From NCBI GenBank assembly GCA_009391195.1, contig VEXB01000007.1, forward strand, positions 1-60,021: a stretch of DNA of 60,021 nt, in the 5' to 3' direction. This document shows positions 46,748 through 51,831 of the stretch, one piece after another (the first letter of the stretch is position 1; every line of letters starts with the position of its first letter). The position numbers were made by a program, and so were the translations under genes. Under the pieces are notes generated by a model. The model was not told where the DNA came from, did no database searches, and saw only the letters and a program-made list of their open reading frames with translations. The stretch comes from SAR202 cluster bacterium AC-647-P02_OGT_505m (GTDB taxonomy: Bacteria > Chloroflexota > Dehalococcoidia > Lucifugimonadales > UBA826).

Positions 46748-47118
46748 TCAATGACACTCCCGATTTTCTTAAAAAAGACAATCTATTTATGATCTCAACA
46801 GGGCATAATTTTCCATTTGCTGTAAAACTCGGCCCCATGGTTACTGCTATTTTGTTTACCTATACCCTTGTTATTTCGGTTGGTAAAGTGACTCTGATAA
46901 CTTGATTTCATTTATATGAGTCATTGAGGGCAAGAAGCCCCTCTTTATCGTGATTCGAAGGGGTACAAAACACAAGCATTTTCAGTGCCAAAATTATAGC
47001 AAATTTACTGTATTCTCACAAGAACAAATCACGCCTGTAAAAAGCTTAAGTTTTGGCAACATTTCAGCCGGAGATTTTGCTATTATTTTTTTTCAGAATT
47101 AACGTCAGATGTCAGACA
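46748..47118. other. Divergent promoter region between gyrB and the pantothenate operon
   Basis: There is no gene here. An imperfect hairpin, GAGGGC with GCCCCTC at about 46926-46943, lies within the presumed gyrB leader on the minus strand. The remainder is AT-rich and must contain both divergent promoters; I could not pick one with confidence. Confidence 0.35.
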
Positions 47119-47231
47119 CTGATAGAATGTTCGCCCGCAGCCAATCCAAGTATGTGGATGGTGAGCTTAGTTGAGGATTTATTTTTGGAGCCGACCTGTT
47201 CGGTTATCAGAGATTATTTGGATCAGAAGAG
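47119..47231 (+). ncRNA. Structured leader RNA, candidate pan motif
   Basis: A closing stem pairs CTGATA (47119-47124) with TATCAG (47215-47220). Inside it is a hairpin with ATCCA (47144-47148) and TGGAT (47155-47159) around a 6-base loop. The stem continues through C-G, C-G and G-U pairs, with bulged A at 47143 and a second bulged A at 47139. A hairpin with two bulged adenosines upstream of panB genes is how the pan motif is described, and that motif is known in Chloroflexi. The leader precedes an operon with panB and panC. This is a structural resemblance only; no covariance search was run. Confidence 0.45.
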
Positions 47232-47267
47232 CTCCCTATTTCACAGAAGGATTTAGGGAGTTTTTTT
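47232..47267 (+). terminator. Leader terminator/attenuator before the pantothenate operon
   Basis: CTCCCTA (47232-47238) and TAGGGAG (47254-47260) form a 7-bp stem followed by TTTTTTT (47261-47267). It ends only 12 bases before the ATG of the P1 peptidase gene, and no gene lies upstream on this strand, so it must act on a leader transcript. This implies attenuation control of the operon. Confidence 0.75.
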
Positions 47268-47279
47268 ATTTGGTTAGAG

Positions 47280-48290
47280 ATGTGTAGTGAAAATATAACG
47301 GATGTTCCGGGAATAAAAGTAGGTCATTGGACTCACGAGAGTGCTTTGACTGGTTGTACTGTGGTTTTGTGTGGGGAAAAGGCAGTGGGAGGAGTCGATG
47401 TAAGAGGATCCTCACCAGGAACTCGAGAGACGGATATTCTTGGTTCAGATAAGCGTGTTGAAATAGTTAATGCTTTCATGTTGAGTGGTGGTAGTGCTTA
47501 TGGTCTTGCTGCTGCTGATGGTGCTATGAAGTACTTGGAAGAACATGGCATGGGTTTCAAAGTAGGTCAGAACATCGTACCGATTGTCCCATCTGCCATA
47601 ATTTATGATTTAGCTGTAGGGGATCCGTCCATAAGACCTGGAAGTGACTCTGGATATGAGGCCTGTAAATCAGCCAGTACGGGTATTTTCGCTCAAGGAA
47701 CCGTGGGTGCTGGTACGGGAGCGACCGTCGGGAAAGTGCTGGGCTCTAACAGATCTGTAAAAGGTGGTTTGGGTTCCGACTCTATAAGACTTTCAAATGG
47801 ATTGACTGTCGGAGCTCTGGTAGTTGTTAATGCTATCGGCAGTATTCATGATCCTCATACTGGGGATCTTATTGCGGGGCCAAGGAGTTCTGATGGAAGT
47901 ATGGTCAGTGCGTCTGAGATTTTAATTGCTGGTGACGATATTGATGAGCAACGTTTGGGAGCCAATACCACAATAGGTGTGATTGCTACTGACGCAAGGT
48001 TAACTAACTCGCAAGCCAATCGACTTGCTTCTTCTGCTCATGACGGTTTGGCCCTATCAATCAGACCTTCACACTTAATAGGAGATGGGGACACTATTTT
48101 TGCTGTTGGAACAGGAGGTGCATCTCATCCTGATCAGGAGATTGCAGATACACACACTTTTAACAGAATAATTGCCGCCGCTGTACAGTGCACATCTCAA
48201 GCGATTGTGAATGCCGTTCGGTCAGCAACCGGTGTTTCTGGTGTTCCTTCTGTTGATGAAGTACATACATCTGGAAGTTTGGGAAATTGA
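47280..48290 (+). CDS. P1-family (DmpA/BapA/NylC-type) self-processing aminopeptidase
   Basis: This 336-residue N-terminal nucleophile hydrolase shows VPGIKVGHWTHE, DVRGSSPGTRETDIL, LSGGSAYGLAAADG and GTVGAGTGATVGK, all family landmarks. The expected autocleavage site is in GANTTIGVIATDA (about residue 225), with Thr as the new N-terminal nucleophile. DmpA and BapA act on beta-alanyl and other N-terminal amide bonds; NylC acts on nylon oligomers. It is the first gene of an operon leading to panB and panC, so release of beta-alanine, the PanC co-substrate, is an attractive inferred role. Confidence 0.9.
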   Translation: MCSENITDVPGIKVGHWTHESALTGCTVVLCGEKAVGGVDVRGSSPGTRETDILGSDKRVEIVNAFMLSGGSAYGLAAADGAMKYLEEHGMGFKVGQNIVPIVPSAIIYDLAVGDPSIRPGSDSGYEACKSASTGIFAQGTVGAGTGATVGKVLGSNRSVKGGLGSDSIRLSNGLTVGALVVVNAIGSIHDPHTGDLIAGPRSSDGSMVSASEILIAGDDIDEQRLGANTTIGVIATDARLTNSQANRLASSAHDGLALSIRPSHLIGDGDTIFAVGTGGASHPDQEIADTHTFNRIIAAAVQCTSQAIVNAVRSATGVSGVPSVDEVHTSGSLGN

Positions 48291-48294
48291 AGCT

Positions 48295-49218
48295 ATGACA
48301 TTTGATAAGGGTTCCAGAATCGGGATTATCGGATCAGGCTTTGTTGGAGGCTCTCTGGCGGTTGCCCTTTCAAGAGTGGGTTACAGTGTTGTTGCGGCGG
48401 CGAGCCGAAGATTCGCTTCAGCAGAATCACTTGCCTTACGTATAAAAGGCTGTAAAGCATTTCCCGACTCACAGGATGTTATTGATGTTTCGGACGTTGT
48501 ATTTCTCACAACCCCGGACGATCTAATTAAATCCATATCTGAACGTCTGAAGTGGAGAAGTAAACAAGCTGCCATTCACTGCTCGGGTGCCGCTAGTCTA
48601 GATGTACTCGACCATCTCTTGGAACATAATGTGATTCCAGGGGCCTTTCATCCTCTCCAGGCCTTTATGTCGGTTGATGAAGGGGCTGACAGTTTGTCGG
48701 GTATAACCATTGGTATAGAAGGTGGAGAAGTTATAGAACCTTTTCTTGAGGAAATGGCGAAGGTTCTTGGGGCACATCCGGTGTTTTTGTCGGCGGAAGA
48801 CAAAGCCCTGTACCACATGTCTGGCGTAATGTTAGGAGGATTGCTTACTGAGTATGCGGCCATCACAACCCAGTTATGGGAGCATATTGGACGATCTCGC
48901 TCTGATGGGATACGTGCATTGCTGCCCATGATGAGACAAGTGGCAAATAATCTCGAACGGTTTGGTCTTCCTGAGGCTGTCGCTGGGCCCTATGCAAGAG
49001 GTGATGTAGGGACGATTCGTAAGCATTTGGATGCCCTGCAAGAAAGAAAGCCGGAACTTTTGGCATTTTATTGCGAATTAGCACTTGCAGGTATGGGCTC
49101 TGTAGAAGAAAAACAGGTTTTGGATGAGACGACCCGTATCGAAATAATCAACGTTCTTAAGGATGGGTTACTTGTGGCACGAAACATGGAGGCTACAGAG
49201 GAAGGGAAAGAGGAATAA
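48295..49218 (+). CDS. Rossmann-fold/DUF2520 protein, possible ketopantoate reductase-like
   Basis: A 307-residue protein with an N-terminal NAD(P)-binding motif IGIIGSGFVGGSLAVAL (residues 9-25) and a C-terminal helical DUF2520 domain. The domains are joined by the HCSGAASLDVLDHL and GAFHPLQAF blocks seen across this family. ATG 48295, just after the stop of the peptidase gene, fits the domain start; the longer frame from 48211 overlaps that gene by 80 bases. DUF2520 genes are often next to panB, and the fold is related to PanE and F420-dependent NADP reductases. A ketopantoate reductase role is an inference. Confidence 0.87.
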   Translation: MTFDKGSRIGIIGSGFVGGSLAVALSRVGYSVVAAASRRFASAESLALRIKGCKAFPDSQDVIDVSDVVFLTTPDDLIKSISERLKWRSKQAAIHCSGAASLDVLDHLLEHNVIPGAFHPLQAFMSVDEGADSLSGITIGIEGGEVIEPFLEEMAKVLGAHPVFLSAEDKALYHMSGVMLGGLLTEYAAITTQLWEHIGRSRSDGIRALLPMMRQVANNLERFGLPEAVAGPYARGDVGTIRKHLDALQERKPELLAFYCELALAGMGSVEEKQVLDETTRIEIINVLKDGLLVARNMEATEEGKEE

Positions 49219-49220
49219 AT

Positions 49221-50015
49221 ATGAGGTATTCGATTAGAAGATTCCAAAAAATGCGAGATGACGGAAAACCGATACCAATGATGACAGCATACGACTACAC
49301 ATCTGCCTATGCCGTTGAAAAAGCTGGAGTACCAATAATACTGGTTGGGGATAGTCTAGGTCAGGTTGTGCTAGGACATGACTCTACGGTGCCTGTGACG
49401 ATGGATGACATGATTAGACATATTCAGATGGTAGTTAGGAGCACAGAAAAGGCACATATTATCGGTGACTTGCCTTTTATGAGCTATCAAATTTCAAATG
49501 AGGATGCAATCCGTAATGCAGGGAGACTATTAAAGGAAGGCGGGTGTCAGTCAGTTAAGTTGGAAGGGGGCTCATCTGTAGCAAAGACAATTAAAAAGAT
49601 GGTTCAAGTTGGCATTCCTGTAATGGGTCATTTGGGATTAACACCTCAGTCTGTAAACCAGATAGGCGGATACAGGGTTCAAGGGCGTTCGTCTAGTGAG
49701 GCGAAAACATTATTAGATGATGCTTTAGAGATTCAAGAAGCAGGTGCCTACGCCATCGTGTTAGAGCTTGTGTCGGCTGAAGTTGCTGAAATGGTTACTG
49801 ACAAACTGTCTGTACCAGTTATTGGCATTGGATCTGGTGTTGGATGTAGTGGGCAGGTTCAAGTATTTCACGACATTCTCGGTCTGATTCCAAACTTTTC
49901 TCCTAAACACGCACGTCGCTATGCCGAGGTAGGAACCATTATTCAAAATGCAGTTGAGTCATATGTGTCAGATGTGATGGATAGAAGGTTCCCCTCTCCT
50001 GAGGAGAGTTTTTGA
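49221..50015 (+). CDS. panB: 3-methyl-2-oxobutanoate hydroxymethyltransferase PanB
   Basis: PanB transfers a hydroxymethyl group from methylene-tetrahydrofolate to 2-oxoisovalerate, giving ketopantoate. The 264 residues contain MTAYDYTSAYAVEKAG, VGDSLGQVVLGHDSTVPVTM with the metal Asp, PVMGHLGLTPQSVNQIGGYR and VIGIGSGVGCSGQVQVFHD. It starts 2 bases after the DUF2520 gene, which implies coupling. Length and motifs are standard. Confidence 0.97.
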   Translation: MRYSIRRFQKMRDDGKPIPMMTAYDYTSAYAVEKAGVPIILVGDSLGQVVLGHDSTVPVTMDDMIRHIQMVVRSTEKAHIIGDLPFMSYQISNEDAIRNAGRLLKEGGCQSVKLEGGSSVAKTIKKMVQVGIPVMGHLGLTPQSVNQIGGYRVQGRSSSEAKTLLDDALEIQEAGAYAIVLELVSAEVAEMVTDKLSVPVIGIGSGVGCSGQVQVFHDILGLIPNFSPKHARRYAEVGTIIQNAVESYVSDVMDRRFPSPEESF

Positions 50016-50045
50016 CTATCTAAGTAAGTTGGTCAGGTTACTAGA

Positions 50046-50906
50046 ATGAAAATTATTGAAACGGCTACTGCGTTCCGACAGGAATGGGCGAATGTTAATG
50101 AGTCTGCTAAATTGTCTCTTGGGTTAGTGCCTACTATGGGATTTTTACATGAGGGACATACCTCTCTCGTAAAAAAATCTGTCTCACAAAACGACGTGAC
50201 GGCCGCAACGATTTTTATAAATCCAACTCAGTTTGGCGAAAATGAAGACTATGAAGACTATCCTAGAGATATGAGGTCGGATCTAGAGATACTTGATCAT
50301 GAAGGTGTTGATCTTGTCTTTGTCCCTTCTCTTGATGAAATGTATCCGGAAGGGTTCGAAACTTTTATCGATGTTGGGTCAGTTGCTTCCCGTTTGGAAG
50401 GAGAATACAGGCCAGGACATTTTCGTGGCGTAGCAACTGTGGTTTGCAAATTGTTATCTATCTGTCGTCCAGATAGAGCTTATTTTGGTCAAAAGGACGC
50501 GCAACAATGTGCCGTAATTACGGCTCTTAATAAAGATCTGTCGCTCGGAAGTGAAATTATCGTTGGAGATACCGTTAGGTCAGCAGATGGTCTTGCTTTA
50601 AGTAGTCGGAATGCATATCTCTCAAATAGAGAGAGGGGCAAAGCATTGTCCATAAGTAGGGGATTGTTTGCCGCAAGAGAGTTATGGCAATCAGGGGAGA
50701 AAGCGGCAGAGAAGTTGAAATCTGTAGTCGTAGATGAGATCTTAACTGGGGACCCAGATATTTCTGTTCAAATTGATTATGTCAGCGTTTCGGATCGAAG
50801 TAGTTTTATCGAAGTTGGTCTTGTCGAAGACTCAGGGAATGCCATCATTCTTGTAGCAGCTGAGGTCGGTACTACACGGTTAATTGATAATGTTCTTCTT
50901 GTCTAA
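50046..50906 (+). CDS. panC: Pantothenate synthetase (pantoate-beta-alanine ligase) PanC
   Basis: PanC condenses pantoate with beta-alanine using ATP. The 286 residues show PTMGFLHEGHTSLVKKS (HIGH-like signature), INPTQFGENEDYEDYPR, VCKLLSICRPDRAYFGQKDA and SSRNAYLSNRER (KMSKS-like loop). The gap to panB is 30 bases. No panD, the usual source of beta-alanine, is in the window. Confidence 0.97.
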   Translation: MKIIETATAFRQEWANVNESAKLSLGLVPTMGFLHEGHTSLVKKSVSQNDVTAATIFINPTQFGENEDYEDYPRDMRSDLEILDHEGVDLVFVPSLDEMYPEGFETFIDVGSVASRLEGEYRPGHFRGVATVVCKLLSICRPDRAYFGQKDAQQCAVITALNKDLSLGSEIIVGDTVRSADGLALSSRNAYLSNRERGKALSISRGLFAARELWQSGEKAAEKLKSVVVDEILTGDPDISVQIDYVSVSDRSSFIEVGLVEDSGNAIILVAAEVGTTRLIDNVLLV

Positions 50907-51036: not shown

Positions 51037-51831
51037 TTGAACATAGTTTTAACCAACGATGACGGAATAAATTCTCCTGGGTTGTGGGAGATTGCTGATT
51101 GCCTTTCAGAGATATGCAATTTGACAGTCGTTGTTCCTGATCGTGATCAGAGTGGAAAAGGGGTTTCTTTAACATTACTCCGGCCATTGTCTATTGAGAG
51201 GGTTCAGTCACGTGTTAAAGGTGTAGACAATGTGTACACAGTTGATGGGACTCCCGCTGATTGCGTGATAATGGCTGCAGGATATATCTGTTCCGAGAAA
51301 ATAGACTTGGTTGTTTCCGGTATCAACCAGGGTGCTAATCTTGGATTAGATGTTTTCCATTCGGGTACCTTCGGTGCTGCTTTACAAGCCTATAACAAAG
51401 GGATAGAGGCCATAGCTTTATCCGTATTGTATAAGGAAGGCATTTACAATCGTCCGGCGGCTGAAATAGGGGCTAAATTGGCTGAAGTCTTGATGAATAC
51501 TTCGGAAGATAGAGAAAATCCTCTCCTCTTGAATGTTAACTTCCCCCATGCAGAACTTGAAGATATAAAAGGTGTTGATTTGACAACACTTGGTCCGAGG
51601 GGGTTTTCAGAACGTGTAGAGCAAGTCGTTAATGGCCGTAGAGAATTTTACTGGATCAAATTCGACAGGCCTGCGGATGAAGACCCGCTTGGAGGCACTG
51701 ACGTTTGGGCAGTACGAAATAACAGAGTTTCTATAACATCTGTTAATCCATTTATGTCTGACCTAAATCAGAGCACTGATGTGTTATCTATAACTGAATC
51801 TATTCGAAAATCGATACCAGGCCAGAAATGA
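51037..51831 (+). CDS. surE: 5'/3'-nucleotidase SurE
   Basis: This stationary-phase survival phosphatase hydrolyses nucleoside monophosphates. The 264 residues start with the metal site LTNDDGINSPG and include DRDQSGKGVSLT, DGTPADCVIMA and SGINQGANLGLDVFHSGTFG, all diagnostic. The start is TTG with ACGGAG upstream. It lies 130 bases after panC, and the region between shows no structure that I recognise. Confidence 0.95.
   Translation: MNIVLTNDDGINSPGLWEIADCLSEICNLTVVVPDRDQSGKGVSLTLLRPLSIERVQSRVKGVDNVYTVDGTPADCVIMAAGYICSEKIDLVVSGINQGANLGLDVFHSGTFGAALQAYNKGIEAIALSVLYKEGIYNRPAAEIGAKLAEVLMNTSEDRENPLLLNVNFPHAELEDIKGVDLTTLGPRGFSERVEQVVNGRREFYWIKFDRPADEDPLGGTDVWAVRNNRVSITSVNPFMSDLNQSTDVLSITESIRKSIPGQK

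Follow-up and report, generated by a model that had tools for sequence, protein, structure and literature searches.

A SAR202 pantothenate operon with a pan-type leader RNA and a ThnT-like amidase that may act as a pantetheine hydrolase

What does an autoproteolytic P1 (S58) amidase do at the head of a pantothenate (vitamin B5) operon? The question is raised by a four-gene unit in a 60,021-nucleotide (nt) stretch of DNA (hereafter the window; contig VEXB01000007.1 of assembly GCA_009391195.1) from SAR202 cluster bacterium AC-647-P02_OGT_505m, in which genes for a P1 protein and a Rossmann-like/DUF2520 protein precede panB and panC. A first-pass annotation had called the P1 protein a DmpA/BapA-type peptidase that could supply beta-alanine in place of PanD, and had suggested that the DUF2520 protein fills a gap left by PanE. 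The unit as such was confirmed by domain and equivalog matches and by its close spacing (4, 2 and 30 nt, all on the + strand), and neither panD nor panE lies within it, as stated there for the locus. A divergent gyrB gene stands upstream and surE downstream. We favor, with a probability of roughly 45%, a pantothenate operon under a pan-type RNA leader in which P1, as a ThnT-like hydrolase of pantetheine, supplies the pantothenate kinase CoaX; the substrate of P1, the direction and the regulatory ligand are what we infer.

Since the window genome is 55.7% complete, and its own absences mean little, a comparison set of 147 genomes from the same Dehalococcoidia/SAR202 order was used, with genome counts uncorrected for phylogeny. 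P1 and DUF2520 were adjacent in 83 of the 85 genomes having both, and P1 lay within 5 kb of PanC in 67/94. In genomes with a relocated panC, P1 still stood beside DUF2520 and panB. The four-gene association is not due to chance, and is conserved across the order.

The P1 protein was assigned to a branch of the S58 family by sequence and by predicted structure. A phmmer search with the window protein returned the nylon hydrolase Nyl50 (242 bits), ThnT (183 bits) and NylC (88 bits), and no match to DmpA or BapA. A profile of the P1 proteins of the order scored Nyl50 at 318 bits, ThnT at 271, NylC at 125, DmpA at 39 and BapA at 28. The AlphaFold model of P1 (pLDDT 87.4) matched the folds of Nyl50 (TM-score 0.82), ThnT (0.78), NylC (~0.77) and BapA/DmpA (~0.65). 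Aligned together, ~70 of 76 window-type sequences have Asn-Thr as the self-cleavage dyad and 15 of 16 DmpA-type sequences have Gly-Ser; in the window protein the dyad is Asn229-Thr230, and not a Ser preceded by Gly or Asn as in DmpA and BapA. The column of BapA Glu133, which we take to bind the amino group of the substrate, held Ala, Ser, Gly or Thr in 76/76 window-type sequences (Ser105 in the window protein) and Glu in 16/16 DmpA-type sequences. Separate, true DmpA/BapA-type paralogues occur in the same order and show the opposite pattern of profile scores. By these sequence and model comparisons the window P1 belongs to the ThnT/NylC branch, and the DmpA/BapA label was not upheld, given its Asn-Thr dyad, its lack of Glu133 and its best scores against ThnT and Nyl50.

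Upstream of P1, the window contains a hairpin with the arms GCAGCCAAUC...GAUGGUGAGC (47137-47166), a stem with bulged A residues ahead of a pan operon, as in the pan motif. According to its published description (PMC2864571), that motif is a stem bearing two bulged A residues; most copies are tandem, and they precede panB/panC/panD operons, Chloroflexi included. The Rfam model RF01749 did not match the window, even with the threshold relaxed to E 10, none of the known riboswitch families matched the window leader, and no tRNAs were found. Among relatives with two hairpins, RF01749 scored one leader (L208) above its gathering threshold (37.4 versus 36.2 bits) and two (L213 and L194) below it, with its first hairpin at the position homologous to the window hairpin. 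The window RNA was therefore classed as a single-hairpin pan-type leader, a link to pan that came solely from relatives.

The strict hairpin motif was found in 36 pan units, always directly upstream of the first gene, which is P1 in 26, DUF2520 in 7 (where P1 is absent) and panB in 3 (where both are absent). Sorted by pattern, the upstream regions comprised 36 with a single hairpin (the window and 35 others), 46 with the signature of a second hairpin and 67 with neither. An alignment of 22 leaders contained 5 pairs changed on both sides, with 18 such cells versus 7.2 in shuffles (0/500 as high), and slid versions of this alignment failed. A covariance model of the leader, R1, was searched over ~1.1 Mb of DNA, where the matches at E <=0.01 were only copies at pan units; the window leader's own variant scored weakly (12 bits). 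A terminator was predicted in 28/36 leaders, relatives forming the same element from unrelated stem sequence. Relative to the RNA motif, a T at -12, an A at -11 and a T at -7 recur over the 36 leaders. A leader peptide was considered and rejected, the short open reading frames (ORFs) in some leaders having no common feature by eye. PanD occurred in 0/36 genomes with a single-hairpin leader versus about half of those with a tandem leader, a pattern that possibly reflects phylogeny only.

The order has a real, clear gap in its source of beta-alanine. PanC was present in 123/147 genomes and PanD scored above its cut-off in 30/147, leaving 93 of the 123 PanC-containing genomes without PanD. The missing panD of the first-pass annotation was supported at the level of the window family, where 0 of 15 genomes (7 of them 93-97% complete) contained it. 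The pyridoxal phosphate-dependent aspartate/glutamate decarboxylase (PF00282) was rejected as a source, with no member in the window family; a uracil-degradation route to beta-alanine has been demonstrated in Rhizobium etli (PMC7142369). The gap, the lack of a PF00282 decarboxylase and the position of P1 as first gene of the operon all speak for a P1 that stands in for PanD by cleaving N-terminal beta-alanine off beta-alanyl peptides for PanC. We nevertheless consider this role quite improbable, because P1 falls in the ThnT/NylC branch and lacks the glutamate of the aminopeptidases, and because its distribution does not complement that of PanD. Among the 123 PanC-containing genomes the two were independent (odds ratio 1.02, p=1.0), and they co-occur inside one cluster in G013, G049, L150, L152, L181 and L189. 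Conversely, PanC is present without either PanD or any P1 in 10 genomes of >=90% completeness. P1 is also kept without its supposed customer: 10 genomes retain it although neither panB nor panC was found. In five such genomes, all of genus g3, gyrB and P1 form a block that borders directly on surE or, in two, on the contig end. The P1 genes of the panBC-less sisters G125 and G137 have an intact dyad and a ratio of nonsynonymous to synonymous substitution (dN/dS) of 0.062 at dS 0.81, showing that purifying selection still acts on P1 after the loss of panB and panC.

We hypothesized that P1 instead acts on pantetheine. CoaX was found in 134 of the 147 genomes, and CoaA, rejected as the pantothenate kinase of the order, was above cut-off in 0/147. 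CoaX-class kinases are reported to be selective for pantothenate, and CoaA can also take pantetheine (PMC11487621), so a pantetheine hydrolase would offer CoaX-only bacteria a natural salvage route. ThnT removes cysteamine from a pantetheinyl group (PMC6097109), and the PDB record of its mature form (3tm1) is entitled 'mature ThnT, a pantetheine hydrolase'. In the proposed scheme, PanB and the DUF2520 protein, as a PanG-type reductase, would make pantoate, which PanC would couple with beta-alanine that the operon itself does not supply. P1 would mature by self-cleavage at Asn229-Thr230 and most likely hydrolyze pantetheine at its beta-alanyl-cysteamine amide; the pantothenate released would pass to CoaX as salvage from coenzyme A (CoA) debris. 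Such salvage would be useful with or without panBC, and thus matches the retention pattern of P1. Tentatively, we extend this proposal to a P1 that serves primary metabolism as a pantetheine hydrolase and adds to the known members of the pan-RNA regulon, to a salvage route that outlasts the loss of de novo synthesis in CoaX-only SAR202-type bacteria, and to a leader representing a single-hairpin pan RNA class that Rfam misses.

Several points weigh against this proposal. The known substrate of ThnT is a carbapenem-attached pantetheinyl group and not free pantetheine (PMC6097109), Nyl50 is nearer to P1 than ThnT is, and related P1 genes beyond the Dehalococcoidia almost all lack a pan gene as neighbor. 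The leaders of the panBC-less genomes G125, G137 and G141 are degenerate, and G021, G040 and G055 show no leader hairpin, so P1 may have left pan control in these six; G062, G089 and G109, also panBC-less, retain the hairpin, and G129 retains it with one change in the 3' arm. The nearness of Nyl50 and the mostly pan-free setting in other phyla would allow a broad amidase, that is, a nylon-hydrolase-like scavenger of amides or peptides that merely sits at the operon head. This alternative, possible if somewhat doubtful, draws further support from an M20 deacylase gene that adjoins P1 in L132, L145 and L174. It accounts poorly for the order-wide linkage of P1 to DUF2520 and panB, even after relocation of panC, and for the shared pan-type leader. 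It is also at odds with contacts in other phyla that are suggestive of a pan link. In Geosporobacter ferrireducens (L153:5009-6948), the end of a strong panE match (TIGR00745, 280 bits) coincides with the start of a P1 gene from the same branch, and a Symbiobacterium row (L145:4272-10336) reads energy-coupling factor ATPase, CbiQ, P1, M20 deacylase, panB and class III aminotransferase. A pantetheine hydrolase remains the reading that we prefer.

The ketopantoate step presents a different picture. The absence of panE, taken as a genome-wide gap, did not hold: the window genome contains ilvC (C15:19441) and a PanE-family gene on contig C21 (TIGR00745, 156 bits versus a cut-off of 141), so there is no ketopantoate gap to fill. 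The PanE-family gene adjoins 5-oxoprolinase genes, and its product may have another function. A role of the DUF2520 protein as ketopantoate reductase is nonetheless likely, and already known in kind. PMC4572677, citing Miller 2013, ties a DUF2520 protein to the PanG homologues EF1861 and FTT1388, given there as ketopantoate reductases, and the window protein combines Rossmann and DUF2520 domains with linkage to panB/panC. The suggestion of a reductase thus stays plausible, and that of a vacancy left by PanE falls away. It is rather unlikely that the DUF2520 protein is some other oxidoreductase here and that IlvC or PanE performs the step, despite the wide occurrence of ilvC (134/147) and ApbA_C (129/147) and the independence of DUF2520 and ApbA_C among PanC-containing genomes. 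DUF2520 also persists in L081 (G040) and L106 (G017), from genomes that yielded neither panB nor panC, and may have another role there. Against a different oxidoreductase stand the occurrence of DUF2520, which strongly tracks that of PanC (odds ratio 15, p 4e-8), the literature link to PanG, and the nearest solved relative, 2i76, which is of the same type.

The coordinates of the unit and its control elements are collected in Table 1.

Table 1. Features of the pantothenate locus, in window coordinates
Feature	Coordinates	Strand	Evidence and remarks
Sigma-70-like promoter TTAACG-18-TAGAAT (putative)	47099..47128	+	Scan count alone no more than chance; backed by the recurring -12, -11 and -7 positions of 36 leaders
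Single-hairpin pan-type leader RNA, GCAGCCAAUCC-loop-GGAUGGUGAGC	47137..47166	+	1 match, 0 in shuffles
Intrinsic terminator (predicted), GAGCTCCCTA / TAGGGAGTTT + T run	47229..47267	+	~-15 kcal/mol; directly 5' of the P1 start codon
P1/S58 autoproteolytic amidase, ThnT/NylC branch	47280..48290	+	Pfam Peptidase_S58, E 9.7e-54; predicted cleavage N229/T230
Rossmann-like + DUF2520 protein, candidate PanG-type ketopantoate reductase	48295..49218	+	E 7.7e-25; ORF also open from 48211
panB, ketopantoate hydroxymethyltransferase	49221..50015	+	Equivalog TIGR00222, 317 bits (cut-off 207.55)
panC, pantoate--beta-alanine ligase	50046..50906	+	Equivalog TIGR00018, 300.6 bits (cut-off 212.75)
surE, conserved downstream neighbor marking the unit boundary	51037..51831	+	Same gene order in relatives

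The earlier interpretation was thus half right, with a DUF2520 reductase likely and a supply of beta-alanine by P1 unlikely. The interest that remains is in a reduced pan RNA and in a pan regulon that includes a ThnT-like amidase. The literature searched yielded no bacterial enzyme converting pantetheine to pantothenate outside antibiotic synthesis; if our proposal is true, the pan-operon amidase would be a concrete candidate for one, and would give a function to a branch of S58 that is large and for the most part unassigned. For the pan RNA, which when described in 2010 had neither a known ligand nor a known binding protein, the set of associated genes is widened, and a minimal form with one hairpin is added.

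Comparison of the window locus with known systems shows partial likeness to each. ThnT from the thienamycin pathway of Streptomyces cattleya (PDB 3tm1, 3s3u) shares with P1 the S58 fold, Asn-Thr self-cleavage and ~40% identity, and both are without the aminopeptidase glutamate; ThnT, however, is part of an antibiotic cluster, with a pantetheinyl-carbapenem as its substrate, whereas P1 heads a vitamin B5 operon. The polyamide hydrolases Nyl50 and NylC (9cxr, 3axg) are closest to P1 by sequence and model, with 42% identity for Nyl50, but are known for nylon oligomers or polymer and have no known link to pantothenate. The beta-aminopeptidases DmpA and BapA (1b65, 3n2w) share the Pfam family and overall fold of P1, but differ in their Gly- or Asn-Ser cleavage site and in having Glu133. 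The ketopantoate reductase PanG is, like the window protein, of the DUF2520 type and linked to panB, a likeness taken from the description in PMC4572677 alone. Finally, the pan RNA motif RF01749 (PMC2864571) resembles the window leader as a bulged-A hairpin at the head of panB/panC operons; it usually consists of two tandem hairpins, whereas the window copy, which RF01749 misses, has one and precedes a P1 gene.

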